Below, piece by piece: positions 33,030 through 57,773 of a DNA stretch of 64,000 nt. The notes under the pieces were generated by a model that searched no databases, was not told where the DNA came from, and saw only the letters and a program-made list of their open reading frames with translations. The stretch covers positions 4,532,001 through 4,596,000 of the forward strand of contig NZ_CP018870.1 of NCBI RefSeq assembly GCF_001941845.1, given 5' to 3'. This DNA is from Streptomyces sp. TN58 (GTDB taxonomy: Bacteria; Actinomycetota; Actinomycetes; Streptomycetales; Streptomycetaceae). The first letter of the stretch is position 1; each line of letters opens with the position of its first letter. The translations under genes were made by a program, and so were the position numbers.

Positions 33030-33776
33030 TTGCCGGGGGATGATCTTCTCTATGACATATGTCAACCTGAAAACGATGCACGGGTAGCGGAATTACCGGA
33101 GGAGTGGCGGCAGCCGGACCGCCCGTACGACGTGGGAGAGGGTGAGGTCCACGTCTTCTCCGTGCTGAACGAGAGCGAATTCGGCCCGCCGCGGGACCTG
33201 CCGCACGGCGGTTCCACGGGCGACGACCGGACTGTACGGGCCTTGCTCGCCCGTCTGCTGATGCGGCCGCCCCACGACATCCGCCTCACGCGGGACGATC
33301 TGGGGCGGCAGAGATGGGAGGCGGGGCCGTTGGGGCTCGCGGTCTGCCGGGACGAGGGAGGGCTGCTCGTGGCCCTGGCCCGGGGCCTGTCGGTGGCGCT
33401 CAGCGCGGTCACCGTCCCGTGCGCGGTCGACGCGGAGGCGCTGCTGCCCTTCAGCCGGACGGAGCGCGCCTTCGCGGGGGAGGCGGCGGCCGGACGGCGG
33501 CCCCTGGTCCTGGCCCGGATGTGGGCGCGCAAGGAGGCGGCGCTGCGACTGGCCGGACGCGGAGCCTTCGCGCTGGCCGCCGAGGTCGACGTGATGGCCG
33601 TCGGGCCGGAGGGCCGGGTGGCGCTGCCCGCCTCCGGGCCGTGGAGTGCGGGCGGCGTCGCGTACGTACGGGACCTGCCCGCCGGAGCCGGGACGGCGGC
33701 GGCCGTGGCGGCCTCCGGCCCCCTGCGCGGTGCGGTCTTCCGCAGATTGCGGTGTCCGGAGCTCGCTCCGGCGTGA
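33030..33776 (+). CDS. Sfp-type 4'-phosphopantetheinyl transferase, TTA-containing
   Basis: 248 residues from TTG 33030, with GAGGGA 4 bp upstream. It transfers phosphopantetheine from CoA to a carrier-protein serine, most likely the ACP at 43457-43702. Visible motifs are GRQRWEAGPLGLAV (~92), the magnesium site in CAVDAEALLPFSRTE (~131) and ARMWARKEAALRLAGRG (~165), the WxxKEA signature. Leu22 is the rare TTA codon (33093-33095), so translation may depend on the bldA tRNA. The first ~16 codons are AT-rich compared with the rest. First gene of the cluster. Confidence 0.88.
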   Translation: MPGDDLLYDICQPENDARVAELPEEWRQPDRPYDVGEGEVHVFSVLNESEFGPPRDLPHGGSTGDDRTVRALLARLLMRPPHDIRLTRDDLGRQRWEAGPLGLAVCRDEGGLLVALARGLSVALSAVTVPCAVDAEALLPFSRTERAFAGEAAAGRRPLVLARMWARKEAALRLAGRGAFALAAEVDVMAVGPEGRVALPASGPWSAGGVAYVRDLPAGAGTAAAVAASGPLRGAVFRRLRCPELAPA

Positions 33777-33790
33777 GCTGTCGTCCCGCC

Positions 33791-33832
33791 AGGGCGTGCC
33801 GCGAGCCGGACGGGACTCTCGCAACACGTCCT
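33791..33832. repeat. Dispersed palindromic element, degenerate copy 3
   Basis: AGGGCGTGCCGCGAG (33791-33805) pairs imperfectly with CTCGCAACACGTCCT (33818-33832). Read on the minus strand the right arm begins TAGGACGTG, and that TAG is the stop codon of the XRE regulator gene. It is related to the copies at 5155 and 9567. Confidence 0.75.
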
Positions 33833-35099
33833 ACGGCATGAGCACGGCGTGCGGGTCGAGACCGGTGACGTGGCCGGGGGCGCTCAGCTCCCGCCACGTC
33901 TCCATCGCGAGCCGGACGGCTCCGGCCTTCTCGTAGTCGGCGGCCGCCGACCTGAAGTCCTCGGCCGCCGCTTCCTCCTGTCCCGCCGCCCGCCGGGCGC
34001 GGGCCCGGATCACCGTGCAGCGGGCCCGGTCGACGGGGCCCAGCGCGGAGGGGTCCAGCGCGTCGGCGGCAGCGGCCGCCTCGTCCGGGGAGGCGTCCCC
34101 GGACCGTACGACGGCCAGTGCCTCCAGGGCCGCGAGCCAGGTCGCGGCCGGGGGAGCGGAGTCGAGCGCCTGCACCCGGCGGGCCCGCTCCAGCAGCGCC
34201 TGGGCGCTCGCGTCGCCGGTGGCCAGGGCCAGCAGGGCGCGGGCCCGGTCCAGGCGGATGCGCAGCCGGACGTCGTCCGCCCCGCCGAGCAGCTCCTCCG
34301 CCTCGGCCAGCAGGCCGACGGCCTCGCTGCCGCCGCCGAGGTGGCGGGCGCCGGCCGCCGCCCAGAGCGCACACGCGCGCAGCGGCTCGGCCGTGATCGA
34401 GGGCACCTCGGTGAGCAGTGCGTCGCCGAGGCCCTTCGCGCGGTGCCACTCCCCGCTCTCCACGTATGCCGTCAGCAGCACCACCTGGGCCCGGACGTGT
34501 TCGGGCCTGCCCGCGTCGAGGCCGGCGGCGGCGCCGGAGGCCTCCTCCGCGAAGGTGACGGCGTCGGACAGCCGTCCCGTGCGCCGGTGGAGGTCGGCGA
34601 GTTCGATCGCGGCGCGGGCGCGCATGAGCTGCGCGGCGGTGGTGATGGGGTCGTTCAGCAGCTCCAGCAGGACCGCCTCGCGCTCGGCGTCGGCCCCGAG
34701 GCGGTCCAGCACGGTGGCCAGTTCCCAGCGGGCCTCCCAGCGCACCTCGTCGAAGCCGCCGTCGCCGGCCTGCCGCACGACGGTGTCCAGCTGGGAGCGG
34801 GCCTCGGCCCAGTCGCCGGCCAGCTGGCTGGAGCGGGCCGCCACGAGCAGCCCGACCAGCTGGAGCCGGTGGGTGCGCTGCCGGTCCCGGGCCTCGGGCT
34901 CGCACAGCTCCTCCAGCGTGACCCCGAGCCGCCCGGCGATGACCTTGGCCGCCTTGAGGCTGGGGATCCGGTGACCGCTCTCCACCAGCGACACGTAGCT
35001 GGCCGAGACGCCCTCGCCGGCGAGGTCACCCTGGGACAGGCCCTGGATGCGACGGCTTTCCCGGACGCGTTTCCCGAATGCTGGCTGCTCGATCGTCAA
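33831..35099 (-). CDS. XRE-family regulator with TPR-like C-terminus (probable cluster regulator)
   Basis: 422 residues from TTG 35099. Residues ~8-65 form the helix-turn-helix (FGKRVRESRRIQGLSQGDLA, then VSASYVSLVESGHRIPSLKA). The remaining ~350 residues are all-helical, Ala/Arg/Leu-rich repeats (for example AELADLHRRTGRLSDAVTFA-like segments) consistent with TPR arrays that bind a peptide or small ligand, as in RRNPP/SARP-like regulators. It is divergent from an MFS exporter gene and adjacent to the PPTase, so it probably controls the cluster. Its stop codon is supplied by the palindromic element. Confidence 0.85.
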   Translation of the reverse strand: MTIEQPAFGKRVRESRRIQGLSQGDLAGEGVSASYVSLVESGHRIPSLKAAKVIAGRLGVTLEELCEPEARDRQRTHRLQLVGLLVAARSSQLAGDWAEARSQLDTVVRQAGDGGFDEVRWEARWELATVLDRLGADAEREAVLLELLNDPITTAAQLMRARAAIELADLHRRTGRLSDAVTFAEEASGAAAGLDAGRPEHVRAQVVLLTAYVESGEWHRAKGLGDALLTEVPSITAEPLRACALWAAAGARHLGGGSEAVGLLAEAEELLGGADDVRLRIRLDRARALLALATGDASAQALLERARRVQALDSAPPAATWLAALEALAVVRSGDASPDEAAAAADALDPSALGPVDRARCTVIRARARRAAGQEEAAAEDFRSAAADYEKAGAVRLAMETWRELSAPGHVTGLDPHAVLMP

Positions 35100-35267: not shown

Positions 35268-36539
35268 ATGACAATCGATGGACGGCCAGGCCGGCGGCGC
35301 CGGTGGGGCATGTATGTCCTGCTGGGCGCGGTGGCGGTCAGTTCGGCCGGCGAGGCGATGATGGTCGTCGCCGTCCCGTGGTTCGTGCTCCAGACGACCG
35401 GCAGCGTGGCCCAGACCGGAATCCTCGTCGCCCTGGGCGCGGTCGCCTCCGGAGCCGTCGGATTCGTTTCCGGCCCGCTGGTGGACCGCTGGGGATTCCG
35501 CGCCACGGCCGTCCTGTCGTACACGGTCGGCGGTCTCGGGGCGGCGTGCATTCCGGTCATGCACGTGCTGGGGATGCTGGACTTCCCCGTCCTCGCGGCG
35601 CTCGTCGTGGCGGCCAACGTGCTGGACATCCCCGCCTCCGCGGCCGTCACCGGCCTGGTGCCCGAGCTGTCCGCGGACGCCGGCATGCCACTGGAGCGGG
35701 GCAACGCGCTGCTCAGCGGAGTCCACCAGGTGGCGCAGCTGTGCGGGCCGCCGCTGGGCGGAGCCGCCGTCGCCCTGCTCGGGGTCTCCCACGTCCTGCT
35801 CATCGACGCCGCCGCCTGCCTCCTCGCGGCGGCCCTCATCCTCGGCTGCGTCGCCGCCGGCCGGGCCCGCGCCCCGGGCGCGCGGGCCGAGGGGCCCTAC
35901 CTGGCCGAGCTGCGCTCCGGACTGCGCACCCTGCGCGAGCACCGGCTGCTGCGGGCCATGGCGGTGTCCGGGACGGCCTTCAACGGCCTGGACAGCGGAC
36001 TGGCCGGCGTGGTCCTGGTGACCTACGCCTACCAGTACCTGGGCAGCGCGGCGAGCCTGGGCATCCTGCTCACCGCGTTCGGACTGGGCGCGGTGGCCGG
36101 CACGGTGGGCTACGCGGTCGCCGGGCACCGGCTCGGCGCCCGCCGCGTGTACCTCGGCTCGGGCTTCGCGGTGGCCCTGTCGATCGGCGCGCTCGCCGCC
36201 CTGCCCTCCCTCGCCGTCGGCGCCGTACTGCTCGCCCTGCTCGGCGCGTTCGCCGCCCCGGTGGGCCCGGTCCGCACCGGCGTGCTCCAGCGCAGCGTCC
36301 CGCGCGAGCAGTACGGGCGGGTGACCGCCGCGGTCGACACGGCCGGGCTGGTCGCCGTACCGCTCGGCGCCTCGATGACGGTGGTGCTCGTGGGCGCCGT
36401 CGGCCTGCGCCCGGCCATCGCCGCGCTCGCCTGTGCGTATCTGCTGGTGGTCTGCTGCTGCTGGGCCGCCCCCGCACTGCGGGGCATGCAGCCAGGCCGG
36501 CAGCCCGTGACTGCCATGACTGAACTTGACAATCAATGA
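35268..36539 (+). CDS. MFS exporter of the cluster
   Basis: 423 residues from ATG 35268. About 12 transmembrane helices; GPLVDRWGFRATAV follows TM2 (MFS motif A variant) and GHRLGARRVYLGSG marks the second half. There is no clear ribosome-binding site, but TAAAGT (35254-35259) lies 9 bp before the ATG, so a leaderless or near-leaderless transcript is plausible. It starts the rightward arm of the cluster and is divergent from the XRE regulator; export of the product or self-protection is inferred. CGAGTCAT in its promoter region resembles half of the palindromes at 44.8-44.9 kb. Confidence 0.87.
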   Translation: MTIDGRPGRRRRWGMYVLLGAVAVSSAGEAMMVVAVPWFVLQTTGSVAQTGILVALGAVASGAVGFVSGPLVDRWGFRATAVLSYTVGGLGAACIPVMHVLGMLDFPVLAALVVAANVLDIPASAAVTGLVPELSADAGMPLERGNALLSGVHQVAQLCGPPLGGAAVALLGVSHVLLIDAAACLLAAALILGCVAAGRARAPGARAEGPYLAELRSGLRTLREHRLLRAMAVSGTAFNGLDSGLAGVVLVTYAYQYLGSAASLGILLTAFGLGAVAGTVGYAVAGHRLGARRVYLGSGFAVALSIGALAALPSLAVGAVLLALLGAFAAPVGPVRTGVLQRSVPREQYGRVTAAVDTAGLVAVPLGASMTVVLVGAVGLRPAIAALACAYLLVVCCCWAAPALRGMQPGRQPVTAMTELDNQ

Positions 36540-36588
36540 CAAGCGGTTGACGCTGACTCTCCATGGACTCCGCCCCGAGGAGGGATAC

Positions 36589-37830
36589 ATGAGCTCCGCT
36601 CCCGCCTGGCCGACCGCTCTCGACGAGCCGGTGCAGGTCCCCGACCCCGGACGCCTGGAGGCACTCCGCGCCGTCCGGGACTTCCTGGCCGACGACCCCG
36701 GCGCCGTCCACGACCTGCTCTGCGAGATCTCCACCCACCGCGCCGCCGGTTACGAGATCGAGGCGACCATCGCCACGCTGGACGGCGCGCTCGCCGAGTT
36801 CGAAACGTACCGGCCGGGCCGGGTCCCGCGACTGGCGGTCTACATGCCGTCCAACGTCGTCCTGTACTCGTACGCCCTGTACCTGCTGGTGCCCGCCCTC
36901 TTCGCGGACCGGCTGGTCTTCCGCCCCTCCAGCCAGGTCAAGGACCAGATGGGCAGGCTGCACGAACTGCTCGCCGCGCGCCACGGGCTGCCGATCGAAC
37001 TGACCAACGCCAGCCAGCGCGAGTTCCTGCGCGAGCACGTCCAGCCGGCCGACGTCGTCGTCTTCACCGGCGCCTACCGCAACGCCGAGCAGATCAGGCC
37101 CCAACTGGCTCCCGGCCGGCTGTTCCTGTTCCTCGGCTCCGGCGTCAACCCCTTCGTCGTCGCCCCGGGCGCCGACCTCGGGAAGGCGGCCCGCGACGCC
37201 GTGGAGATCCGGATGCACAACGCCGGCCAGGACTGCCTGGGCCCTGACCTGTTCTGCGTCCAAGAGGACCTGCTCGACGAGTTCCTCGACCTCCTCGTCA
37301 CCGAGCTCAAGGCCCTGCGCTACGGGCCCTACACCGACCCGGACGCCGACTACGGGCCCGTCTTCTACGACGGCGCGCTGGAGGAGGCCGCCCAGTACCT
37401 GGCCCGCAACCGCCGCGGCATCGTCCACGGCGGCCACGTCGACTTCCGCGAGCGGCGGATGGAGCCCACCGTCGTCCTCGGCGAGGAGGTGACCCCGCGC
37501 ACGCCCGTGCCGGAGTTCTTCGCGCCGGTCTTCAACGTCGTCGGCTACCGCGACCCGGAGACCCTGGCGGCCACGCTCACCACCGCGGTGTTCACCGAAC
37601 GCGCCCTCGGGTCGAGCGTCTACGGCGACGCCCCCGCCCTGGTCGAAGCGCTGCGCCGGCGCACCACCGTCACCGTCGACACCACGCTGCTGTCCATCGA
37701 CGACGGCAACGCGCCCTTCGGCGGATACGGGCGGATGGCCAACTACATCACCGACGGCACGCAGATGTGGACCGAGCCGGTCCTCGTCTCCAAGGCCGTC
37801 GCCGAGCACCTTCCGGCGGCCGGCCGATGA
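36589..37830 (+). CDS. Aldehyde-dehydrogenase-fold enzyme, possibly CoA-acylating or acyl-reductase type
   Basis: 413 residues from ATG 36589 (GAGGGA 6 bp upstream). It has an ALDH nucleotide-binding half and the nucleophilic Cys216 in HNAGQDCLGPDLF. The motif that normally carries the general-base Glu (ELGG) is FLGSGVNP here, so the deacylating Glu is absent, as in CoA-acylating aldehyde dehydrogenases and LuxC-type acyl reductases. It overlaps the next TPP-enzyme gene by 4 bp, indicating coupled expression; the pair could convert a 2-oxo acid to an aldehyde and then to an acyl (thio)ester. Substrate and direction are inferred only. Confidence 0.8.
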   Translation: MSSAPAWPTALDEPVQVPDPGRLEALRAVRDFLADDPGAVHDLLCEISTHRAAGYEIEATIATLDGALAEFETYRPGRVPRLAVYMPSNVVLYSYALYLLVPALFADRLVFRPSSQVKDQMGRLHELLAARHGLPIELTNASQREFLREHVQPADVVVFTGAYRNAEQIRPQLAPGRLFLFLGSGVNPFVVAPGADLGKAARDAVEIRMHNAGQDCLGPDLFCVQEDLLDEFLDLLVTELKALRYGPYTDPDADYGPVFYDGALEEAAQYLARNRRGIVHGGHVDFRERRMEPTVVLGEEVTPRTPVPEFFAPVFNVVGYRDPETLAATLTTAVFTERALGSSVYGDAPALVEALRRRTTVTVDTTLLSIDDGNAPFGGYGRMANYITDGTQMWTEPVLVSKAVAEHLPAAGR

Positions 37831-39551
37831 CCGACGTGACGTACCCGAGCGCCTGGCACGCCGTCGCCGACCACCTCCACCACCTCGGCACCGCCACCGT
37901 CTTCGGCCTGCCCGGCGACGACATGGACCTGCTGGGCGCCCTGGAAGGCACCGACACCCGCTTCGTCCTCTGCCGCGACCAGCGCAACGCCCTCTTCATG
38001 GCGACCGGTTACGCCCTCGCCTCCGGGCGGCCCGGCATCTGCGCGGTCGGCAAGGGCCCGGCCCTGACCAACACCCTCACCGGGGTGCTGGAGGCGGCCT
38101 CCGCGGCCGCACCCGTCGTCCTCCTCGCCGGGGGCACCGCCCTGGACCGGCTGGGCACGGGGGCGTTCCAGGAACTCGACCAGCTCGCCGCGGTCCGCCC
38201 GTACGTCAAGTGGGCGGTCCGGGTGGACCACGCCGACCGGCTGCCGGGGGTACTGGAGAAGGCCGTCGCCGTCGCCGTCAACGGCACGCCCGGCCCCGTG
38301 TACGTCGAGATCGCGGAGCAGGCGGCCGGGCAGCCGGTCACCCGCACCGGTCCCTGGCGGCCGGCCGCCGCGCAGCGGCTCACCCCGGACCCCGGGGTGC
38401 TGCGGGCCACCGCCGACGCCATCGCCGCGGCCCGGCGGCCCCTGCTGCTGGTGGGCGGCGGCGCCCGCCACCGCAACACCGGCCGGCTACTGGAGGACTT
38501 CGCCGAGCGGATCGGCGCCGGGATCTTCACCACCGCCTCCGGCCGGGGCACGGTCGCCGAGGACCACCCGCTCTTCTGCGGCGTGTCGGGCCTCTACACC
38601 GTGGCACCCGCCGACCGGCTGTGGCGCGAGACCGACCTGGTGATCGCCCTCGGCAGCCGGCTGGAGGAGACGGCGACCTTCGGCTGGCCGGACGCCGCCG
38701 GGCTGCCGGTGATCCAGGTGGTGGCGGGCGAGGAGAGCCTGGTCACCGGAAGGCCGGGCACCGGTGTGCTCGGCGATGTCGCACGGACGGTCGAAGCCTG
38801 GTCGGCGCTGCTGGAGCGGCACGCGGGCGGCACCGCCTGGACGGGACGGGTCAAGGCCGTACGGGAGGAACACGCCGTACGGGCCGCCGAGCGGGCGGCG
38901 GCCGCGGACGAGGCGGCGGCCGCCGCCGGCCCGGACGCGGGCGTACCGGTGGCCCGGGTGCTGGCCGCCCTCGCCGAAGCCGTTCCCGAGACGCGCGTCC
39001 TCGTCCAGGAGAACGGCCTCCAGGACATGTGGTCTTACTTCTACCCCCACTGGAGTTGCGGGGCCCTCGGCGGGTCCGTCGTGCCCAGCGAACAGACCCC
39101 GCTCGGCTTCGGCGCCGCCGCCGCCGTGGGCGTCGCCCTGGCCGAGCCGGGACGGCCCGTGGTGGCCGTGGCCGGCGACGGCGCCTTCAACCTCTTCCGC
39201 TCCGAACTGCCCACCGTCGCCGACGCGGGCGCGGCCGTGCTGTACGTGGTCCTCGACAACGGCGGCTACGGATGGCTGCAGACCAACCTGGACCGGGTGT
39301 CGGGCACCGGCTCGCGGTTCGCCTTCACCGCCGACCGCCCGACCGGCTCCGAGGGCCTGGCCCACGCGTACGGCCTCGGATTCTGGCGGGCCGACAACCC
39401 TGGCGATCTCCACGGCGTCCTCCACAAAGCGTGGCAGCACTGCGCGGAGAACAACACGGCAGGAGTGGTCGAGGTGAGGGTGTCCCTCGCCGACAGCCCC
39501 CCGGGCACCTCGGGGGCGAACGGCGACTTCCCGCTGCGTGAGGACGAATGA
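37827..39551 (+). CDS. Thiamine-diphosphate-dependent enzyme (acetolactate-synthase/2-oxo-acid-decarboxylase family)
   Basis: 574 residues from ATG 37827. The N-terminal PYR domain (~5-170), middle domain (~185-330) and C-terminal PP domain (~380-540) are in the usual order. The TPP/Mg motif is GDGAFN at ~450, followed ~22 residues later by LDNGGYG. The position normally holding the catalytic Glu (RHEQ in the family) is CRDQ, so Asp51 replaces Glu. Coupling to the ALDH-fold gene suggests decarboxylation of a 2-oxo acid to an aldehyde, as AruI does with 2-ketoarginine. That substrate is a hypothesis prompted by the ureohydrolase in the cluster. Confidence 0.85.
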   Translation: MTDVTYPSAWHAVADHLHHLGTATVFGLPGDDMDLLGALEGTDTRFVLCRDQRNALFMATGYALASGRPGICAVGKGPALTNTLTGVLEAASAAAPVVLLAGGTALDRLGTGAFQELDQLAAVRPYVKWAVRVDHADRLPGVLEKAVAVAVNGTPGPVYVEIAEQAAGQPVTRTGPWRPAAAQRLTPDPGVLRATADAIAAARRPLLLVGGGARHRNTGRLLEDFAERIGAGIFTTASGRGTVAEDHPLFCGVSGLYTVAPADRLWRETDLVIALGSRLEETATFGWPDAAGLPVIQVVAGEESLVTGRPGTGVLGDVARTVEAWSALLERHAGGTAWTGRVKAVREEHAVRAAERAAAADEAAAAAGPDAGVPVARVLAALAEAVPETRVLVQENGLQDMWSYFYPHWSCGALGGSVVPSEQTPLGFGAAAAVGVALAEPGRPVVAVAGDGAFNLFRSELPTVADAGAAVLYVVLDNGGYGWLQTNLDRVSGTGSRFAFTADRPTGSEGLAHAYGLGFWRADNPGDLHGVLHKAWQHCAENNTAGVVEVRVSLADSPPGTSGANGDFPLREDE

Positions 39552-39576
39552 ACGACTGCGAGACAAGGATGAGGCA

Positions 39577-40479
39577 ATGGCCGTAGCGCTTTTCTTTCCC
39601 GGGCTCATTCCCACCCGATTCGACGCGATCAGCGAGTTCGTCACCACCAACGACCACGCCAGACGCAGATTCGCCCAGGCGGACGAGGTGTTGGGCTACC
39701 GCCTGGCCGACGCCTACCGCGAGGCGTCCATCTACGACTGGGAGGTGTTCGAGACCGGGTTCATGGCAGTCACCCTCGCCCTCGCCGACTGCGCGCAGGA
39801 CCGCCACGGCGGCCGGCCCGCCGTCTGCGGCGGGCAGAGCTTCGGCGCCTTCATGGCGGCCGTCTGGGCCGGCGCGCTGACCTACCCGGACGCGCTGGAG
39901 CTGATCCGGCGCAGCGTCACCGTCGAGACGGACTACTTCGACTCCCTGGAGGAGCCGCTGGGCTGCCACTTCTTCTACCGGCTTCCGCACGACACGGTGC
40001 GGCGGCTGGTCGAGGAGACCCAGGCCCGCGGGGAGTGGATCGAGCTGTCGGTGGTCCTGGACGAGGAGGTCCACGCGGTGTCCGCGTCGCTGCGCTCCCT
40101 GGAGCGCTTCGAGCAGCGGGTCCGTGAGGAGGGCGGGTTCCCCTTCTACACCATGAACCGCGCCGAGCACTGCTCCGCCGTCTCCGGGCTGCGCGAGCGC
40201 CTGCACGACGAGGTCTACGGCACCGTCCCGTGGAACACCCCCGCGATACCCGTCCTGTCCGACGTCGACGGGCGGCTCCTGACCGATCCCGAGGAGATCA
40301 AGCAGGACCTGCTGGACGGCTGGACGACCCCCGTCCACTGGCAGACCATCCTGCGGGGCCTGCACGCGGCGGCGGTCGACGAGGTGTGGATCCCGGGCCC
40401 GCGCAACATGTTCGCGCGGATCACCAACAAGGCCATCCCCACCCGGGTGATCACGCCCAGGACGGCGCTCGGAGCGTGA
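39577..40479 (+). CDS. ACP S-malonyltransferase (FabD-like)
   Basis: 300 residues from ATG 39577 (AAGGATGAGG upstream). It loads malonyl groups from CoA onto ACP. The nucleophile is Ser88 in GGQSFGAFMAAVWAGAL, and the His is in FPFYTMNRAEHCSAVSG (~194). The family fingerprint GRNQ/arginine region is less obvious, so acyl specificity should be treated as unproven. The gene ends in a GTGA overlap with the MFS gene. It is a second FabD-type gene beyond the primary FAS copy expected elsewhere, which supports a dedicated acyl pathway for the cluster. Confidence 0.88.
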   Translation: MAVALFFPGLIPTRFDAISEFVTTNDHARRRFAQADEVLGYRLADAYREASIYDWEVFETGFMAVTLALADCAQDRHGGRPAVCGGQSFGAFMAAVWAGALTYPDALELIRRSVTVETDYFDSLEEPLGCHFFYRLPHDTVRRLVEETQARGEWIELSVVLDEEVHAVSASLRSLERFEQRVREEGGFPFYTMNRAEHCSAVSGLRERLHDEVYGTVPWNTPAIPVLSDVDGRLLTDPEEIKQDLLDGWTTPVHWQTILRGLHAAAVDEVWIPGPRNMFARITNKAIPTRVITPRTALGA

Positions 40480-49113: not shown

Positions 49114-49124
49114 ACGAGCTGAGC

Positions 49125-50016: not shown

Positions 50017-51045
50017 GTGCACCACCTCGGATCGGCCCACGGGCCCGACATCACCTTCCTCGGCGTTCCCCGGCTCGACCTGTCCGCCCCGCCCGTGGAC
50101 GCCGACGTGGTCATCCTCGGCGCCCCCTTCGACGGCGGCACCTCGCACCGACCCGGCGCCCGCTTCGGCCCGTCCGCGATGCGGCAGGCCTGCTACCTGC
50201 CGCAGAACGGCGCACGCCGCAGCCTGGCCATGGGCGTGGACCCGCTCACGGAACTGAAGGTGTACGACGCCGGCGACGTCCCCTGCTACTCCGGCGACAT
50301 CGAGCAGAGCATCCGCAGCATCGAGCAGGCGGTACGGATGACGGCCGCCCTCGGGGCGATCCCCGTCGTGCTCGGCGGCGACCACACGATCGCGCTCCCC
50401 GACATGCGCGGCCTGGCCCGCCACCACGGCTTCGGCCGCATCGCCATGCTGCACTTCGACGCCCACGCCGACACCGGCGAGGTCGAGGACGGCCCGCTGT
50501 ACGGCCACGGCAAGCCGATGCGCCAGCTCATCGAGTCGGGCGCGGTGCGCGGCGACCGCTTCCTGCAGATGGGACTGCGCGGCTACTGGCCCGGCCCGGA
50601 CACCCTGCGCTGGATGGCGGGCGAGGGCATGCGCTCGTACGAGATGTCCGAGATCACCTCGCGCGGGCTGCCGGCCTGTCTCACCGAGGCGTTCGCCGTC
50701 GCCATGGACGACTGCGACGGGGTCTTCCTGTCCGTCGACGTGGACGTGGTGGACCCCGGCCAGGCACCGGGCACCGGCACCCCGGAGCCCGGCGGCCTGA
50801 CCTCCCGCGAACTGCTGGACGCGGTGCGCCGGATCGCCTACGAGCTTCCCGTGGTCGGCGTCGAGGTCGTCGAGGTGGCACCCCCCTACGACCACGCCGA
50901 CATCACCGCCTACCTGGGCAACCGGGTCGTCCTGGAGGCCCTGTCCGGCATCGCCCGGCGGCGCCGCGACCAGGCCCTGGGCACACGCTGGGACCCGCGC
51001 ACCCCGCTGCTGGAACGCGAGACGCGGGAAGGGGCGCAGGCGTGA
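50017..51045 (+). CDS. Ureohydrolase (agmatinase/guanidinobutyrase-like)
   Basis: 342 residues from GTG 50017, 1 bp after the reductase stop. Manganese ligands are in VVLGGDHTIALP (~117), MLHFDAHADTGE (~145) and FLSVDVDVVDPGQAPG (~237), the complete arginase/agmatinase set. These enzymes remove urea from a guanidino group to leave an amine. Adjacent genes encode an enoyl reductase and an acyl ligase, so one option is deamidination of a guanidino-acyl chain, as in amino-acyl-starter polyketides. Another is conversion of Arg19 in the precursor core to ornithine, as the peptide arginase OspR does. Confidence 0.92.
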   Translation: MHHLGSAHGPDITFLGVPRLDLSAPPVDADVVILGAPFDGGTSHRPGARFGPSAMRQACYLPQNGARRSLAMGVDPLTELKVYDAGDVPCYSGDIEQSIRSIEQAVRMTAALGAIPVVLGGDHTIALPDMRGLARHHGFGRIAMLHFDAHADTGEVEDGPLYGHGKPMRQLIESGAVRGDRFLQMGLRGYWPGPDTLRWMAGEGMRSYEMSEITSRGLPACLTEAFAVAMDDCDGVFLSVDVDVVDPGQAPGTGTPEPGGLTSRELLDAVRRIAYELPVVGVEVVEVAPPYDHADITAYLGNRVVLEALSGIARRRRDQALGTRWDPRTPLLERETREGAQA

Positions 51046-52541
51046 GCGCGACGAGGACCGGGGCACCGGCGGACCCGGCGGTGGCGGCCGCGCCCCCGGG
51101 CCCGGTGGCAGGCACTCCCGCCCCGGCCCCGCGACTGGCCGACGCGGCCGGCACCCTCACCGGGGCCGCGCTCACCCGCCGGGTGCTCGCCGCCGCCGCG
51201 GAGCTGCGCGAGCGCGGCGTCGCACCGGGCGACCGGGTCCTGGTCAAGGGCGACAACTGCGTCGACTACGTCGTGGCCCTGCTCGCCCTGATGCACCTGG
51301 ACGCCTCGCTCGTGCCGGTGGACCACCGCCAGTCCGCGGCGGACGGGCGGTTCGCGGCCCGCCGGGCGCGGGCGCGGTGGCTGCTGACCGGGGAGGCGGC
51401 CGCCGCCGACTTCCCCGGCGAGCACGTGCTGGCCTATCCCGGCCTCGGTACGGGCCACGCCCCGCCCGACGGGGACGTCGACCTCACCGCGTGGTTCGCC
51501 CGCGCCGACGCCGTGGTGCTGTGGTCCTCGGGGACCACCGGCCCGCCCAAGGGCATCGTGAAATCCGGCCGCGCCGTCCACGACAACACCCGGCGCACCA
51601 TCACGGCCATGGGGTACCGCGCGGACGACGTGCTCGCCCCGCTGCTGCCCTTCTCCCACCAGTACGGGCTGTCCGTCGTACTGCTGTGGTGGCTGGCCGG
51701 CTGCACGCTGGCCGTCACGCCCTACCAGCGGCTCGACGTGGCCCTCGCCCAGGCCGCCGGGCACGGGGTCACGGCCGTCGACGCCGCCCCGTCGACCTAC
51801 CACTCCCTGCTCGGCGTCGTGCGCCGCCGGCCCGAGCTGCGGGCCGCGCTGAGCCGCGTACGCGTCTGGGGCGTCGGCGGCGCCCCGCTGCCCGCCCCGC
51901 TCGCCGAGGCCTTCCCGCAGGCCCTGGGCCGGCCCCTCCTCGACGGGTACGGACTCACCGAACTCGGGAACGTCGCGCTGGCCACCCCCGACGTGCCCAC
52001 CGGCTGCGGCAGGCCGCTGCCGGGCGTCGAGGTACGCATCGTCCGCCCGGACGGCGAACCCGCCGCCCCCGGCGAGCTCGGCGAGATCGAGGTGCTCTCG
52101 CCCGGGCTGATGGAGGGCCACCTGCTCGACGACGGCACGCTCGCCCCCGTACCGCGGGGCTGGTACGCGACGGCCGACCTGGGGCGCCTCGACGCCGAGG
52201 GCCACCTGTACGTGGTGGGCCGCAACCAGGCCGTGCACCGGTCGGGCTTCACGCTCTACCCGGAGAACCTGGAGCGCAAGGCCGAGGCCTGCGGGCGGCA
52301 GGTCAAGGCGCTGGCGGTGGAGGACCTGCGGCGCGGCTGCACCCTGCACTTCGTCGTGGCCGACCCGGACGGGGGCTCGCCGGCCCAGTGGCGCGGGCGG
52401 ATGGCCCCGCATCTGGCGGAGTACGAACAGCCCAACGCCGTGCACGTCGTCGACCGCTTTCCGCTGAGCGCCAACGGCAAGACCGACACGGCGGCCCTGC
52501 GCAGGATGGTGGGTGTCGGGGCAGCCCCCGGCGCCGCCTGA
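51042..52541 (+). CDS. Acyl-AMP/acyl-CoA (or acyl-ACP) ligase
   Basis: 499 residues from GTG 51042, overlapping the ureohydrolase gene by 4 bp. ANL-superfamily motifs are VLWSSGTTGPPKGIVKS (P-loop A3, ~165), GYGLTELGNVA (A5, ~308), YATADLGRLDAEG (A7, ~375) and DRFPLSANGKTDTAALRR with the catalytic Lys (A10, ~480). It adenylates a carboxylic acid and transfers it to CoA or a carrier protein. Its coupling to the ureohydrolase suggests activation of a guanidino or amino acid starter such as 4-guanidinobutyrate; this remains a hypothesis. A bidirectional hairpin follows. Confidence 0.92.
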   Translation: MSATRTGAPADPAVAAAPPGPVAGTPAPAPRLADAAGTLTGAALTRRVLAAAAELRERGVAPGDRVLVKGDNCVDYVVALLALMHLDASLVPVDHRQSAADGRFAARRARARWLLTGEAAAADFPGEHVLAYPGLGTGHAPPDGDVDLTAWFARADAVVLWSSGTTGPPKGIVKSGRAVHDNTRRTITAMGYRADDVLAPLLPFSHQYGLSVVLLWWLAGCTLAVTPYQRLDVALAQAAGHGVTAVDAAPSTYHSLLGVVRRRPELRAALSRVRVWGVGGAPLPAPLAEAFPQALGRPLLDGYGLTELGNVALATPDVPTGCGRPLPGVEVRIVRPDGEPAAPGELGEIEVLSPGLMEGHLLDDGTLAPVPRGWYATADLGRLDAEGHLYVVGRNQAVHRSGFTLYPENLERKAEACGRQVKALAVEDLRRGCTLHFVVADPDGGSPAQWRGRMAPHLAEYEQPNAVHVVDRFPLSANGKTDTAALRRMVGVGAAPGAA

Positions 52542-52626: not shown

Positions 52627-53763
52627 TCACCGCCGGAGCAGGACCAGCGAGGCGTTGTTGCCTCCGAAGCCGAAGCTGTTCACGGCGGCCGTCCGGACGC
52701 CGGAGACCTCCATCGGGGCCGTGGGCAGCACCAGCCGGGCGGTCGGCTCCGGGGTGGCCAGGCCCGCCGTGGGGGCGACGATCCCGCTGCGCAGCGTCCC
52801 GGCGGCCGCGGCGATCGCCGGTGCGCCGGAGATGTGCAGCAGGTGGCCGATGGCGCCCTTGTGCGAGCTGACGGGCAGGGCGCGGGCGCCGCTGTCCGCG
52901 GCGACGGCCTCGACGGCGGCCAGTTCCGCCGCGTCGCCCTGGCCGGTCCCGGTCGCGTGGGCGTGCACATGGTCCAGCCCGTGCACGGAGGCGTCGTCGA
53001 GGGCGTCGCGCATGCAGGCGGCGACCCGGTCGGTGTCGGAGGCGGCGGACTTGGCGCCCGAGACCCGGCAGGCCGACCCGGCCACGACGAGGTCCGCGGC
53101 CGCTGCGCGGGCCCGGGCGTGTGCGGCGCTCTCCAGCACGACGGCGCCACCGCCCTCGCCGAGCGAGATGCCCGCCCGTTCGACGTCGAAGGGCCGGGCG
53201 GCCGTGCGGCCGACGGCACGGACGACGTCCATGCTGGCGTACTCGTACCGGTTGAGCACCGAGGAGCCCACCACGGCGGCCACGGGCGCCTCGCCGGCGC
53301 GCAGCAGCTCGCGCGCGTACCCGACGGCGAAGACGGCGGAGGCGCAGGCGTGCGAGAGGTGGACGTACCGCGGGCCCGGCGGCGCTCCCAGGACCTCGGC
53401 CGGGTCGGGGCCCATGAACTCCCGCTCGTCGCCGGTCGGTTCGGCGCGGCCCTCGCCGGGCCGGGGCAGGGGGGCCTGGCCGACGAGGAGCACGACGGCG
53501 CCGTCCGGGAGCCGGGCGAGGCCCGCCGCGTGCAGGGCCTCCGCCAGGGCGGCCCTGGCGTAGGCGCCCTTACGGGTGGCCCCCGCGGGCTCCGGTGCCG
53601 TCTGCGGCACCTCGCCGACCGGTTCGCCCCGGTAGGGCGCCGCGGTGAAGCGCCGGGCGGGTGCCAGGGCGGAGCGTCCGCCGACCAGGCCCCGCCAGTA
53701 CGGCTCCACGCCGTGGCCGAACGGGGTGACCAGGCCGAGTCCGCTGATGACGATGTCGCTCAC
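52627..53763 (-). CDS. Second beta-ketoacyl-ACP synthase (FabF/KAS-like)
   Basis: 378 residues from GTG 53763, overlapping the preceding minus-strand gene by 4 bp. The catalytic Cys140 is in LSHACASAVFAVGYAREL, the His pair in HAHATGTGQGDAAEL (~260) and SSHKGAIGHLLHISG (~290), and the C-terminal loop is NSFGFGGNNASLVLL. It is shorter than the ketosynthase at 45022-46341, with a trimmed N-terminal region. The active-site Cys means it is not an inactive chain-length factor. It may catalyse priming or a specific elongation in the acyl chain. Confidence 0.92.
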   Translation of the reverse strand: MSDIVISGLGLVTPFGHGVEPYWRGLVGGRSALAPARRFTAAPYRGEPVGEVPQTAPEPAGATRKGAYARAALAEALHAAGLARLPDGAVVLLVGQAPLPRPGEGRAEPTGDEREFMGPDPAEVLGAPPGPRYVHLSHACASAVFAVGYARELLRAGEAPVAAVVGSSVLNRYEYASMDVVRAVGRTAARPFDVERAGISLGEGGGAVVLESAAHARARAAAADLVVAGSACRVSGAKSAASDTDRVAACMRDALDDASVHGLDHVHAHATGTGQGDAAELAAVEAVAADSGARALPVSSHKGAIGHLLHISGAPAIAAAAGTLRSGIVAPTAGLATPEPTARLVLPTAPMEVSGVRTAAVNSFGFGGNNASLVLLRR

Positions 53764-54293
53764 AGGCCGGACGCCTTCCAGGTGGTGGCGAGGGCGAGGC
53801 AGTCCGCGTCGCGCGGGTCCTCGCCGGGGAACACGATCAGGTCCAGTACGACGGCGGCCGGGCGGGCGGCGGTGACGGCGGGGGTGAACTCCGCGCCGGG
53901 CTCCACGCCGGGCTCCGCCGGCCGGGCCAGCAGGTAGCAGTCGCCGCGGTGCTCCGTCGCGGTCAGGTAGGGGCGCACCAGTTCGGAGGCCTCCAGCCCG
54001 ACGGAGTCCGAGGGCCGCAGCCGGCGTGCGGTGTCGTGGCAGCGGGCGACGAAGCGCCGGGCCGCCCAGGTGCCGTAGTCGTGGCACAGGACGTACAGCG
54101 GGGCCGTCGCCCGCACGTCCTCGGGCAGCGCGCCGAAGGCGTCGCCGAGGGCCGCGGAGGCCGCGTCCGCCGGCTTGCGGTGCACGGGTCGTGCCGCGAG
54201 CGGCACCGGGACGGCGGCCAGCCGGGTCTCGTCGGTCCCGGCGAGCGCCCGGTGCCAGGGCACCGCGACGGGCCTGGTGGTTCCTGTCGTCAT
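53760..54293 (-). CDS. Unrecognised protein coupled to the second ketosynthase
   Basis: 177 residues from ATG 54293 (GAGGGG 6 bp upstream). It overlaps the ketosynthase start by 4 bp, so the two are made together. I do not recognise a family. There is no signal peptide or transmembrane helix. Scattered features (PLYVLCHDYGTWAARRFV, then DCYLLARPAEP and AVVLDLIVFPG) are weakly reminiscent of a ketosynthase N-terminal lobe without its catalytic part, so a short chain-length-factor-like or partner role is possible. Its tight coupling argues that it acts with the ketosynthase. Confidence 0.75.
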   Translation of the reverse strand: MTTGTTRPVAVPWHRALAGTDETRLAAVPVPLAARPVHRKPADAASAALGDAFGALPEDVRATAPLYVLCHDYGTWAARRFVARCHDTARRLRPSDSVGLEASELVRPYLTATEHRGDCYLLARPAEPGVEPGAEFTPAVTAARPAAVVLDLIVFPGEDPRDADCLALATTWKASGL

Positions 54294-54376
54294 CCCAACC
54301 CCTCTACCGCAAGTCATGATCTGTCGAATATGCTCAGCCGGTAGTCAATTTTTGTCAACGAAATGAAAGGGGAGTC
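54294..54376. promoter_or_regulatory. Divergent promoter region with direct TTGAC half-sites
   Basis: Only 83 bp separate the leftward hypothetical/ketosynthase unit from the rightward glycosyltransferase unit. On the minus strand TTGAC-AAAAA-TTGAC (about 54343-54357) places two half-sites one helical turn apart and supplies -35-like hexamers TTGACA and TTGACT. The AT-rich stretch is unusual for the region. Regulator unknown. Confidence 0.55.
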
Positions 54377-55609
54377 ATGCCGCTCCACGTCGGATTCGTC
54401 GGCATCGCGTGGCACGGTCATGTGAACCCCACCCTCGGCCTGGTCCAGGAACTGGTCCGCCGGGGCCACCGGGTCTCCTACGCGGTCACCGAGGCCTTCG
54501 CCGACACCGTCCGGGCCGTCGGCGCCGAGCCCGTCGTCTACCGCAACCCGGTCGACGACGCCCTCACCGACGACGGCCTGGAGATCTCGCCGACGGACTT
54601 CCTCCGGGAGACCGAGGCCACCCTGCCCGTAATCGCCGAGGCCTGGGCCGACGACCGGCCCGACGTCATCGCCTACGACGGCATCGCCTGGGCCGGACGG
54701 GCCCTCGCCGCCAAGTGGCACATCCCGGCCGCCGAGATGTGGCCCTCCTTCGTCTCCAACGAGCACTTCTCCCTGGAGGCGGAGTTCCTCGCGGACCAGC
54801 CGCTGCACCCCGGGGTCCTGCGCTTCGTCCGCGAACTGACCCGCTTCCTCACCGCCCACGGACTGCCCGCGACATCCGCCGGCGACTTCCTCGGCCACAC
54901 CGAGCCGCTGCGCCTGGTCTTCCTGCCGCGCTCCTTCCAGTACCGCGGCGAGACCTTCGACGACCGCTTCGCCTTCGTCGGACCCTGCGCCGGAGACCGC
55001 GCCTTCCAGGGCGACTGGCACCCCGCCGCGGACCGCCGGCCGGTGCTGCTGATCGCCCTGGGCACCGCCTGCTACGAGTGGCCCGAGTTCTTCCGCATGT
55101 GCGGCGAGGCCGTCGCCGACCTGCCCTGGCAGGTCGTCATGGCCTACGGCCCCGGCATCGACCCCGAAGCCGTGGGCCCGCTGCCCGACCACGTCGACGC
55201 CCGGCCGCACGTACCCCAGCTCGCCGTCCTGCGCCACGCCGACGCCTTCGTCACCCACGCCGGCATGGGCAGCACGATGGAAGCCCTCTCCCACGGGACC
55301 CCGATGGTGGCCGTCCCGCAGACCGGGGAACAGGCCGCCGTCGCCGAGCGCGTCGCCCAACTGGGCCTCGGGGTCCGCCTCGACCGCGAACAGCTGACCG
55401 CGCACACCCTGCGCGAAGCCCTCGTACGCGTCATGGACGACCCCGGCATCCGCGCCAACGCCGCACGGATGCGCGAGGAACTGCGCTGCGCCGGCGCCGC
55501 CCCCGAGGCCGCCGACCGCCTGGAACGCCTCGCCACGTCCGCCGCGTCCGCCGCGGGCACCGGCACCGCCGGCACCCGTACGGCGCCGGGCGTGGCCACC
55601 GGCACCTGA
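54377..55609 (+). CDS. Glycosyltransferase, GT1/MGT type
   Basis: 410 residues, GT-B fold. The acceptor domain starts VGFVGIAWHGHVNPTLGLVQ, a macrolide-glycosyltransferase-like N-terminus. The nucleotide-sugar site in the C-terminal domain is DAFVTHAGMGSTMEALSHGT (~290), with PQTGEQ after it (Gln/Glu sugar contacts). ATG 54377 has AAAGGGGAG upstream. It transfers a sugar from an NDP donor to a small-molecule acceptor; no deoxysugar genes are present, so a common donor such as UDP-glucose or UDP-GlcNAc is likely. GNAT, deacetylase and methyltransferase genes follow, suggesting amino-sugar tailoring. Confidence 0.92.
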   Translation: MPLHVGFVGIAWHGHVNPTLGLVQELVRRGHRVSYAVTEAFADTVRAVGAEPVVYRNPVDDALTDDGLEISPTDFLRETEATLPVIAEAWADDRPDVIAYDGIAWAGRALAAKWHIPAAEMWPSFVSNEHFSLEAEFLADQPLHPGVLRFVRELTRFLTAHGLPATSAGDFLGHTEPLRLVFLPRSFQYRGETFDDRFAFVGPCAGDRAFQGDWHPAADRRPVLLIALGTACYEWPEFFRMCGEAVADLPWQVVMAYGPGIDPEAVGPLPDHVDARPHVPQLAVLRHADAFVTHAGMGSTMEALSHGTPMVAVPQTGEQAAVAERVAQLGLGVRLDREQLTAHTLREALVRVMDDPGIRANAARMREELRCAGAAPEAADRLERLATSAASAAGTGTAGTRTAPGVATGT

Positions 55610-55666: not shown

Positions 55667-56410
55667 ATGCAGGGCAAACTCGTCAGGCTCGAACGGCCCA
55701 GGGACGAGGACTACGAGCTGATGGCACGGTGGTTCGGGCCCGACGCCCCCGCCGCCGTCATGGCCGCCACCGACGGAGACGTCGTCACCGCCGAGGAGTT
55801 CCGCCGCCTCGACCAGAGCGGCGGCCTGCGCCAGTTCGCCGTCCGCGACGCCGAGGACCGCACCGTGGGCGCCGTCCACTTCAAACACCAGGGCCCGGTC
55901 GGCGGATACGTCCTCGGCGGCGCGATCGGAGACCGCGAACTGTGGCGCCGCGGCCTGGGCGCCGAGGCCTTCGACCTCCTCATCGACCACCTCTTCCACG
56001 CCCGCAACGCCCACCGCGTGCAGTTCACCACGGCGCTCTACAACAAGAACGTCCTCCGCCTGGTCACCGGCGTCGGCTTCACCCTCGAAGGCATCCTGCG
56101 CGAGTACTTCTACCTCGACGGCCGCCACCACGACGGCGCCGTGTGGGGACTGCTGCGCCACGAGTACTACGCGGCGGTCGAAGAGCTCAAGCGCACCGAC
56201 GCCACGTTCTCCCTGGCCGACGCCATACCCGAGGAGGACAAGGAAGAGGCCCGCCGGCTCCTCGCCGAGTACGTCGCCGGCCCGTTCGGCAAGACCTCCA
56301 CCGGGCTCCTCCTCGCCGCCGCCGGCATCACCCCCGCGGCCGGCGACCAGGACCGTACCCAGGACCGTCCACACGACGGCGACCGGCAGCCCGGGGCCGG
56401 CGAGCGGTGA
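55667..56410 (+). CDS. GNAT-family acyltransferase
   Basis: 247 residues from ATG 55667 (GGGAG upstream). The GNAT core runs ~1-165: KLVRLERPRDEDYELM at the start, the acyl-CoA pyrophosphate loop in ELWRRGLGAEAFDLLIDHLF (~88), and NAHRVQFTTALYNKNVLRLV then GVGFTLEGILRE (~105-145). A further ~80 residues form a helical tail. In goadvionin biosynthesis a GNAT enzyme joins the polyketide acyl chain from its carrier protein to the peptide N-terminus, so this protein is the leading candidate to couple lipid and peptide. N-acylation of a deacetylated amino sugar is the alternative. Confidence 0.88.
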   Translation: MQGKLVRLERPRDEDYELMARWFGPDAPAAVMAATDGDVVTAEEFRRLDQSGGLRQFAVRDAEDRTVGAVHFKHQGPVGGYVLGGAIGDRELWRRGLGAEAFDLLIDHLFHARNAHRVQFTTALYNKNVLRLVTGVGFTLEGILREYFYLDGRHHDGAVWGLLRHEYYAAVEELKRTDATFSLADAIPEEDKEEARRLLAEYVAGPFGKTSTGLLLAAAGITPAAGDQDRTQDRPHDGDRQPGAGER

Positions 56411-57168
56411 CACCGCAGCGCTGGAGCACCCTCGTCCTCTCGCCGCACTTCGACGACGCGGCCCTCTCCGTCGCCGGCCTGCTCGGCCGGCTGGACGGCC
56501 CCGCCGCCGTGGCCACCGTCCACGGCGGCGCCCCGCCCGAGGGGGCACCCGCCTCCTGGTGGGACGCGGGCTGTGGATTCACCACGGCCGCGGAGGCCCA
56601 CCGCACCCGCCTGGAGGAGGACGCGCGCGCCTGCGCCCTGATGGGGGTCGAACAGCTCACCCTGCCCAACGCCGACAGTCCGTACCGCGACGGCGGCCCC
56701 CTCACCGGCCTCGCCGAACTCCTGAGGGACCTGCACCCGGACACCAGGGTCCTGCTGCCGCTCGGCACCAACCAGCCGGACCACGCGGCCGTCCGCGACC
56801 AGGCCCTCGCCCTCCTCGCCGACCCGGCGGGCCCCCGGCCGTACGTGTACGCCGACCTGCCCTACACCGGCGCCGTACGCCGGTGGGGAACGGACGCGGC
56901 GGTCGAACGCCTGGCCGGGGACCCCGCGTACGGGGGCGCGCTGCGCGAGACGGCCGCCCGCCACCGCATGCGGGTGGCGTACGACGTCCGCCTCGACGAC
57001 ACCGAATGGGCCGCCAAACGCGCCGCCATCGTCTGCCACAGCTCGCAACTCGCCCCGGTGGCCGTCGGTCACGGCCCCTTCCTGCGCAAACCCGGCCCCC
57101 TGCAGGCCGAGCTCGTCTGGGCGCTGGAGCCGCTCGGGGACACCACCGCACACACCCCGGAGCCCTGA
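56407..57168 (+). CDS. PIG-L (LmbE-like) N-deacetylase
   Basis: 253 residues from GTG 56407, overlapping the GNAT gene by 4 bp. The zinc and catalytic motif is VLSPHFDDAALS (~9-20; PHxDD), the third ligand region is GTNQPDHAAVRDQ (~120), and the chain continues with a typical LmbE core. The family removes acetyl groups from GlcNAc-type sugars (MshB, GlcNAc-PI deacetylase, glycopeptide tailoring). Next to a glycosyltransferase, GNAT and NodS-like gene, it likely deacetylates the transferred sugar; deacetylation of another amide cannot be excluded. Confidence 0.9.
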   Translation: MTPQRWSTLVLSPHFDDAALSVAGLLGRLDGPAAVATVHGGAPPEGAPASWWDAGCGFTTAAEAHRTRLEEDARACALMGVEQLTLPNADSPYRDGGPLTGLAELLRDLHPDTRVLLPLGTNQPDHAAVRDQALALLADPAGPRPYVYADLPYTGAVRRWGTDAAVERLAGDPAYGGALRETAARHRMRVAYDVRLDDTEWAAKRAAIVCHSSQLAPVAVGHGPFLRKPGPLQAELVWALEPLGDTTAHTPEP

Positions 57169-57773
57169 TGCCGACCACCCGCCGCACCTCGGTGTCCACC
57201 GCACACTTCGACAAGGCCTACCGCGCCCGCACCGACCCCTGGGGCACCCTCCACAAGGCCTACGAACGGGAGAAGTTCGCCGACACCGCCTCCCTGCTGC
57301 CCGCCGGCCGCTTCCGCTCCGCACTGGAGATCGGCTGCGGCGTCGGCGCCCTGACCCGGCTCCTCGCCCCGCACTGCGACGCGCTGCTCGCCACCGACTG
57401 CTCCGGGGCGGCGATCGAACAGGCCCGCGCCAACTGCGCGGACCTGGACGGCGTCTCGTTCGCGACGCTGCGCGTGCCCGAGGACCTGGCAGGCGGCGAG
57501 GCGGACCTCGACCTCGTCGTCATGTCCGAGGTGGGCTACTACCTGTCCGACGCCGACCTCGCCCTCGCCGCCCGGCGGATCTGCGCACGGCTGCGGCCCG
57601 GCGGCCACCTGCTCCTCGCGCACTGGGTCCACGAGGGCGCCGAGGGGGTCATGACCGGACGAGGGGTCCACGAGGTGTTCCGTGCCGTTGCCGGTACGGT
57701 CCAGGTCGCCGGCCGGGACGCGAGCCGGTACGGCGAGACCTACCGGCTGGATCTGCTCCGGAGGCTGCCGTAG
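57168..57773 (+). CDS. NodS-like SAM-dependent methyltransferase
   Basis: 201 residues from ATG 57168, overlapping the deacetylase stop by one base. The N-terminus HFDKAYRARTDPWGTLHKAY matches the NodS-type entry (FDxxYxxxxDPWxxxxxxYE). The SAM motif I is ALEIGCGVGALTRLLAP (~46), and DLVVMSEVGYYLSDADL (~104) and RLRPGGHLLLAHWVHEG (~130) follow. NodS N-methylates the deacetylated glucosamine of Nod factors. In this operon N-methylation of an amino sugar, or of a terminal amine on the acyl chain, is inferred. Last gene of the cluster. Confidence 0.88.
   Translation: MPTTRRTSVSTAHFDKAYRARTDPWGTLHKAYEREKFADTASLLPAGRFRSALEIGCGVGALTRLLAPHCDALLATDCSGAAIEQARANCADLDGVSFATLRVPEDLAGGEADLDLVVMSEVGYYLSDADLALAARRICARLRPGGHLLLAHWVHEGAEGVMTGRGVHEVFRAVAGTVQVAGRDASRYGETYRLDLLRRLP

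Follow-up and report, generated by a model that had tools for sequence, protein, structure and literature searches.

The question raised by this locus is whether a lanthipeptide synthetase and a set of lipid enzymes encoded side by side in Streptomyces sp. TN58 serve one pathway or two. The locus occupies positions 33030-57773 of a 64,000-nucleotide stretch of contig NZ_CP018870.1 (the whole of which is referred to here as the window) and comprises 22 genes, which include those for LanKC (a class III lanthionine synthetase), for a precursor peptide of 28 residues and for stand-alone lipid enzymes. Genes were called by codon-position GC and corrected via reading frames, and annotation, including every statement below on what is present or absent among the 22 genes, is based on profile searches of those genes. 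The lipid and peptide genes form one unit, given their recurrence together beside LanKC and their absence from 16 control LanKC loci. The cluster likely makes a short class III ring peptide, on the N-terminus of which a GNAT acyltransferase encoded in the cluster is predicted to place a fatty acyl chain, a reading to which we assign a probability of about 0.72.

One scan of genome contigs for LanKC returned 13 loci, five of which carry the block: L007 (S. virginiae), L008 (S. composti), L009 (S. rimosus), L010 (Streptomyces sp. NRRL F-2664) and L018 (S. albus). A tblastn search with the window proteins located in all five the aldehyde dehydrogenase (ALDH)-family enzyme, the thiamine diphosphate (ThDP)-dependent enzyme, the VinK/FabD-like acyltransferase (AT), the acyl carrier protein (ACP), the R2-like ligand-binding oxidase (R2lox)-like protein, the ketosynthase KS1 and LanKC, as well as the precursor, the FabI-type enoyl reductase, the AMP-forming acyl ligase (AMP-ligase), the second ketosynthase KS2, its half-ketosynthase partner and the GNAT. 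A class-wide search of 394 genomes detected LanKC at E 1e-150 in 55, and the surroundings of nine listed places were examined. Among these is L067, from another family of the class, which has a LanKC of 47% identity by tblastn, two precursors, and KS1, ThDP enzyme, AT, LanKC, GNAT, R2lox, AMP-ligase and ALDH at 40-54% identity. Identity of LanKC to that of the window ranges from 93 to 47% over these six further family loci. A nine-gene core (KS1, AT, ThDP enzyme, ALDH, AMP-ligase, R2lox, GNAT, LanKC and precursor) is present in all seven loci, the window included, and the ACP, FabI, KS2 and the KS2 partner are present in six of the seven. The core is missing from all 16 other LanKC loci, which include the short contig ends L014, L019 and L069; eight of the 16 come from the first scan, with LanKC at 44-52% identity and no block, and eight from the class-wide search. 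Single look-alikes occur in these loci, namely an ACP (58%) and a ketosynthase (40%) upstream in L016, a MaoC-like gene in L013, and weak matches to the ThDP enzyme in L011, the P450 in L017 and the ALDH in L070. Recurrence of the core in six loci besides the window is more than chance, and the lipid and peptide genes, whose interleaving, with FabI following the precursor, was described in an earlier first-pass annotation of this DNA, are linked in seven loci.

The precursor gene (49027-49113) encodes MSIVLDLQGLEVPAEETTRVASTASNHC, and the identical sequence is found in L007 and L010. Family precursors (n = 11, eight distinct sequences) are 27 or 28 residues long and all end at the stop codon in S-T-x-S-x-x-C. 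Fifteen LanKC loci outside the family gave 18 control precursors, of which none ends in SxxSxxC and 17 have SxxSxxxC, and the SxxSxxxC repeats of SapB-like precursors are found in none of the 11 family precursors. The control precursors were found via patterns permitting both spacings and picked by eye for an LxLQ leader, and are thus not a random sample; some were trimmed to an inner Met, and one L066 row ending CA was excluded. The nocaviogua peptide is Ala-Avi-Val-Ser-Avi-Asp/Asn-Gly-Avi (PMC10435860), which when read back as A-S-V-S-S-N(D)-G-C may be set beside the core here, A-S-T-A-S-N-H-C. Relative to the lipolanthines the precursor here has only 28 residues, the lipolanthine precursors themselves lying outside this comparison. 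Five tandem precursor-like open reading frames were seen in the LanKC locus L066 (L066:9347-10400), where a PF02441 flavoprotein is encoded about 9.5 kb from LanKC.

The features of the cluster, in coordinates of the window, are as follows.
33030..33776 (+), candidate Sfp-like phosphopantetheinyl transferase (PPTase; PPT); below cut-off in PF01648 (E 0.019) and in TIGR00556 (E 0.043)
33831..35099 (-), HTH_3 regulator; PF01381 35 bits; 90% ortholog in L077
35274..36539 (+), MFS transporter 1, start approximate; PF07690 99.8 bits on the enclosing frame 33849-36539
36526..37830 (+), ALDH-family enzyme; PF00171 93 bits; usual general-base Glu absent (alignment)
37827..39551 (+), ThDP-dependent enzyme with three TPP domains; cofactor-activating Glu replaced by Asp (alignment)
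39538..40479 (+), VinK/FabD-like AT; VinK_C PF21124 49.9 bits, above cut-off
40476..42053 (+), MFS transporter 2 with C-terminal extension; PF07690 131.8 bits on the enclosing frame 40230-42053
42121..43350 (-), cytochrome P450; PF00067 121.7 bits
43457..43702 (-), ACP; PRK00982 105.1 bits (cut-off 84); PF00550
43826..44809 (-), R2lox-like ferritin-fold oxidase; PF00268 53 bits; metal-ligand positions kept
45022..46341 (+), FabF-type ketosynthase KS1; TIGR03150 526.8 bits (cut-off 493.75)
46338..48962 (+), class III lanthionine synthetase LanKC with RamC_N domain; NF038151 1011.7 bits (cut-off 575)
49027..49113 (+), precursor LanA, 28 residues, LDLQ leader motif and C-terminal SxxSxxC
49116..49171 (+), RNA hairpin directly 3' of the precursor stop; fold of 49108-49190 at -52.1 kcal/mol, z -4.6
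49245..50015 (+), FabI/InhA-type enoyl reductase, the next gene after the precursor; PRK07889 392.6 bits (cut-off 299)
50017..51045 (+), arginase/agmatinase-family ureohydrolase; PF00491 289 bits; variable part
51042..52541 (+), AMP-forming acyl ligase; PF00501 197 bits
52627..53763 (-), second ketosynthase KS2; PF00109/PF02801; NCBIfam fabF 165 bits, below cut-off
53760..54317 (-), KS2 partner (half-ketosynthase), 185 residues, a predicted thiolase-fold half resembling a chain-length factor; no family match
54377..55609 (+), macrolide-family glycosyltransferase; TIGR01426 416 bits, above cut-off; variable part
55667..56410 (+), GNAT acyltransferase, candidate peptide-lipid coupler; PF13302 44.8 bits
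56407..57168 (+), PIG-L deacetylase; PF02585 37.7 bits, above cut-off; variable part
57168..57773 (+), NodS-like methyltransferase; PF05401 above cut-off on the enclosing frame 56559-57773; variable part

LanKC, the precursor, the ACP, both ketosynthases, the InhA/FabI reductase and the AMP-ligase are found where the first-pass annotation had placed them, and family matches are missing for two genes, the precursor and the KS2 partner (KS2 itself was scanned as the longer frame 52627-54087). The PPTase and malonyltransferase also claimed there are present as genes, the former, which is the weakest gene call of the cluster, having an 84% ortholog at the matching place in L077 and the latter its VinK_C match; the PPTase models, the FabD model (59 bits for the AT) and the malonate models all score below cut-off. 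R2lox scores 80 bits on the R2-like ligand-binding oxidase model, again below cut-off, and matches PDB 7qbk at E 2.4e-11. For the 22 genes, the earlier description of the lipid machinery as purely type II is borne out, no modular polyketide synthase or fatty acid synthase being found among their products; no match to a ketoacyl-ACP synthase III (KAS III) domain occurs among them, and the ketosynthase domains are all FabF-type. The earlier annotation had passed over the GNAT, the R2lox-like oxidase, the ThDP enzyme, the ALDH, the P450, the half-ketosynthase and the ureohydrolase. It had correctly reported that KS1 and LanKC overlap by 4 bp (ATGA, 46338-46341); LanKC and the precursor are separated by 64 bp, and the precursor and FabI by 131 bp, where the hairpin 3' of the precursor might set the ratio of precursor to enzyme.

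In the proposed pathway, LanKC would phosphorylate and eliminate the two core serines and close a labionin-like ring on the C-terminal Cys, and a protease encoded outside the cluster would cut the leader before the last approximately eight residues (ASTASNHC). The acyl chain would be built by the AT, ACP, KS1 and FabI together with FabG and a dehydratase of the host, which are cluster-borne in some relatives: between FabI and the AMP-ligase, FabG is added in L008 and L018 and a MaoC-like dehydratase in L008 and L009, so both, and hence a complete reductive cycle, were seen in L008 only. The AMP-ligase, ALDH, ThDP enzyme and R2lox, acting as one module, may prepare or trim the acyl unit, most plausibly by oxidising an acyl chain bound to a carrier or to CoA. 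The GNAT would then couple the acyl chain to the peptide. Its occurrence in all seven loci makes it the likely candidate for this role, and nine of 23 GNAT homolog rows lie on a contig of the same size as a LanKC and/or KS2-partner homolog; the rows compared, copied by hand, were 23 of 32 for GNAT, 15 of 120 for LanKC and 26 of 27 for the KS2 partner. The glycosyltransferase, PIG-L and NodS-like enzymes may add a de-acetylated, methylated amino sugar, which to judge from the enzyme families would involve transfer of GlcNAc, de-acetylation and N-methylation, and the MFS pumps would export the product. Sugar-tailoring genes had been predicted as part of the cluster, and they do lie within 54377-57773; as a general feature they hold less well, since together with the ureohydrolase they are present in four of the seven loci (window, L007, L009 and L010), the DNA examined of L067 showing none of them.

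Several observations weigh against this reading. The ACP, FabI, KS2 and KS2 partner were not detected in 37.6 kb of L067, indicating that the fatty-acid core is not identical everywhere, and the DNA examined of L008 and L018 likewise lacks the ureohydrolase and sugar genes, and that of L018 the P450 and second MFS genes. No leader peptidase was detected in the 22-gene set. By profile the GNAT is of a generic kind, with diamine and spermidine acetyltransferases as its best PDB relatives, and no protein of Streptomyces sp. TP-A0584, which we take to be the goadvionin producer, is named among the 32 GNAT homologs. In alignments, Asp replaces Glu in the ThDP enzyme in eight of eight sequences and the general-base Glu of the ALDH is absent in seven of seven, so standard chemistry cannot be assumed for either enzyme. 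Finally, none of the 22 genes matches PF02441, the HFCD flavoprotein family.

Microvionin, a lipolanthine, strongly inhibits methicillin-resistant Staphylococcus aureus. By 2023, lipid-tailed class III lanthipeptides numbered only 12, in three groups (PMC10435860). The lipolanthines (microvionin, nocavionin/nocaviogua and goadvionin) resemble the present system in having a class III synthetase, a short core with a C-terminal SxxSxxC, dedicated acyl genes and a GNAT, but here no HFCD cysteine decarboxylase was found and a module of R2lox, ThDP enzyme and ALDH is present; where a polyketide part is named for goadvionin, the present cluster has discrete fatty-acid enzymes. Lipoavitides (2024) are, by a title cited in PMC13060382, class III lanthipeptides acylated by a non-modular fatty acid synthase. 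Compared by that description only, they are like the present cluster in combining non-modular fatty-acid enzymes with a class III peptide. Their short hydroxy-dimethylpentanoyl group is reportedly made by a KAS III, for which there is no counterpart among the 22 genes. The link between lipid and peptide is therefore already known from lipoavitides, and what is unusual here is the missing decarboxylase together with the R2lox/ThDP acyl module. A published description of this cluster was not found among the matches listed in the openly accessible literature. The cluster is a source of small discrete enzymes for making acylated peptides.

A gene for a flavoprotein cysteine decarboxylase (MicD) is expected in a lipolanthine cluster. 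In microvionin the C-terminal Cys is reported to be oxidatively decarboxylated prior to cyclisation to avionin (PMC9415263), avionin being decarboxylated labionin (PMC10880069). The present cluster could be that of a true lipolanthine if its Cys were decarboxylated to give avionin by an enzyme encoded elsewhere, such as a flavoprotein of the genome, or by the R2lox or P450 of the cluster. Such a route would agree with the Cys and SxxSxxC spacing of all 11 precursors, with the presence of R2lox in all seven loci and with the resemblance of the core to nocaviogua (PMC10435860). The host genome, however, has five PF02441 matches of which the nearest lies about 300 kb from the cluster, and by eye these are UbiX-like, CoaBC-like and three others without the P-x-M-N motif. 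In five more genomes that carry the cluster there are two to four matches each (S. composti only two), and among the matches listed none is, judging by contig number and length, on the LanKC contig, the single contig of the host excepted. Across the 55 LanKC genomes, the matches listed place PF02441 at about 9.5 kb (G586) and about 21 kb (G711) from LanKC and in no other genome within 30 kb, four of five matches being listed for the L067 genome.

R2lox was considered as the missing cysteine decarboxylase, and this candidate was weakened by its location next to the acyl module in the similar loci L028 and L029, with no match to LanKC in 60 kb at either, and further by the location of relatives beside AMP-ligases in L030 and L031, all of which speaks for acyl chemistry. 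A true lipolanthine is on balance unlikely, if still deserving appreciable weight. Since no decarboxylase was found, the hallmark avionin is not accounted for; the cluster is lipolanthine-like in how it works but misses one of the defining features, and it is not classed as a lipolanthine. The lipolanthine-like label of the first-pass annotation thus stands for the SxxSxxC end and the class III LanKC, and falls short at the HFCD cysteine decarboxylase, which was seen neither in nor near the cluster. The accompanying label of a labionin-type product, a predicted ring chemistry, fits the missing decarboxylase. The family keeps a lipolanthine-type core without the expected decarboxylase, and so raises the question of whether a short-spaced ring can form without decarboxylation.

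To return to the acylated ring peptide without a flavoprotein decarboxylase, which remains the preferred reading, the acyl module can be followed into other loci. The ALDH, KS2 partner, ThDP enzyme, AMP-ligase, KS2 and R2lox occur together in the Streptomyces loci L028 and L029 at 27-51% identity, with no match to LanKC in the 60 kb examined at each; these loci would serve another product. In both the module falls within the first 10.5 kb and a 61-residue acidic protein adjoins R2lox, and further on L028 has genes for a monooxygenase-flavin reductase fusion, an amidohydrolase, PrpF, an asparagine synthase and a PALP protein. In L067 the AMP-ligase and ALDH are fused in a single frame of 928 residues directly after R2lox (L067:13279-16065), and distant R2lox relatives lie directly 3' of AMP-binding enzymes in L030 (9089-11804), which also has an AurF-type N-oxygenase gene, and in L031 (7119-10480). 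R2lox, beside AMP-ligases and within acyl-module loci, is thereby tied to activated acyl substrates, which points to a role in acyl chemistry as judged from gene neighbourhood. Proteins of this type so gain a pathway context, in an acyl module that recurs without peptide genes. R2lox was detected at E 1e-30 in eight of 392 sampled Streptomyces genomes, and in four of these eight (that of the window included) it is at least 87% identical and has KS1, ACP and P450 genes adjacent.

The six R2lox metal-ligand positions are kept in all ten sequences (by eye against 7qbk). An acyl-oxidising module is suggested by these families, and an alpha-oxidation unit is proposed, since that route runs through hydroxylation, ThDP-dependent cleavage, oxidation of the aldehyde and re-ligation: R2lox would hydroxylate an acyl thioester, the ThDP enzyme would cleave it, and the ALDH and AMP-ligase would re-arm the shortened acid. 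This exact route is a rather doubtful one. The ALDH without its base speaks against plain aldehyde oxidation, and the scores of the best PDB relatives of the ThDP enzyme (BbmA, acetohydroxyacid synthases and 2-hydroxyacyl-CoA lyases) differ by no more than approximately 25 bits, so the sequence does not settle the reaction; a search of the BbmA/CsmA literature found nothing relevant. A reductive alternative, in which the ligase and ALDH may supply an aldehyde for ThDP-driven carboligation, is on a par with alpha-oxidation. The joint reading, that a tail made by discrete enzymes is cut by one carbon through alpha-oxidation and that the SxxSxxC ring forms without a flavoprotein decarboxylase, is marginally less probable again.

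KS2 and its partner may be compared with the KS-CYF pair AmcF-AmcG of cispentacin (PMC10698177), where a ketosynthase stands beside a truncated ketosynthase-like partner with an ACP, an AMP-ligase and a FabI. The partner here differs in having no family match and a weak fold match, and KS2 falls below the AmcF cut-off. A cispentacin-type pair is less favoured, as the partner matches none of the NCBIfam and Pfam models even at E 10 and its fold match is weak.

A different function for part of the module is an arginine-derived starter, in which the ThDP enzyme, ALDH and ureohydrolase would yield 4-guanidino- or 4-aminobutyrate by way of the arginine transaminase route. The ureohydrolase does resemble agmatinase-2, proclavaminate amidinohydrolase, guanidinopropionase and guanidinobutyrase, the ThDP enzyme matches the guanidino-oxopentanoate decarboxylase model (below cut-off), and nocavioguas carry a bis-methylguanidino acid (PMC10435860). 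Yet the ureohydrolase is found in four of seven loci and always with the sugar genes, whereas the ThDP enzyme and ALDH are found in all seven, and the general base that hydrolytic ALDHs have is missing from the ALDH here. We regard this starter as improbable.

The locus could also consist of two neighbouring but unrelated clusters, one in which LanKC makes a class III peptide of ordinary type and one in which the fatty-acid genes make something else, as the occurrence of the six acyl-module genes without LanKC in L028 and L029 might suggest. Against this, the KS1 and LanKC genes overlap, the precursor gene is flanked by those of LanKC and FabI, the mixture is kept in all seven loci despite a different gene order in L018 and L067, and apart from single look-alikes the 16 other LanKC loci lack the block. 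Two separate clusters are accordingly very unlikely.

The phylogeny of LanKC was taken from a quick IQ-TREE analysis of 131 sequences, with no bootstrap, long branches flagged and MicKC not included. The family LanKC forms a clade of 20 rows with a Shimodaira-Hasegawa-like approximate likelihood ratio test (SH-aLRT) value of 100, and a larger group of 48 rows, with a moderate SH-aLRT of 87, holds this clade and P0081 of Streptomyces sp. TP-A0584. That LanKC is a SapB-type morphogen synthetase can be dismissed as extremely improbable, for although it has a RamC_N domain and is the sole RamC_N gene in the host genome (G000), where no separate SapB-type LanKC was found, its 28-residue precursor ends SxxSxxC-stop in place of the two SxxSxxxC of SapB-like precursors, and L012 (with a SapB-like precursor) and its neighbours L013, L015 and L017 fall outside the LanKC group of the family (SH-aLRT 87 to 89). 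The first-pass annotation had named a SapB-type LanKC without linkage to fatty-acid genes as the result that would count against it; what was found is a LanKC apart from L012 and a core present in all seven loci.

The left flank of the cluster has a biotin carboxylase gene (30180-31943, -), and the right flank a small open reading frame (57896-58414) followed by maf (58395-59015, -) and a carboxyltransferase gene (59511-61220, -), so that the cluster sits between acyl-CoA carboxylase-type genes and maf. The maf gene adjoins the block in the window, L007 and L010, and the copies of S. composti (L008) and S. albus (L018) lie beside other genes. These differing neighbours suggest that the block moves as a whole. 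Among plasmid records, 80 match LanKC by tblastn and none reaches an identity of at least 60%, and thus there is no close plasmid copy of the cluster's LanKC in the collection searched. For one LanKC homolog, P0039 of S. rochei, a plasmid is nevertheless given as the location.

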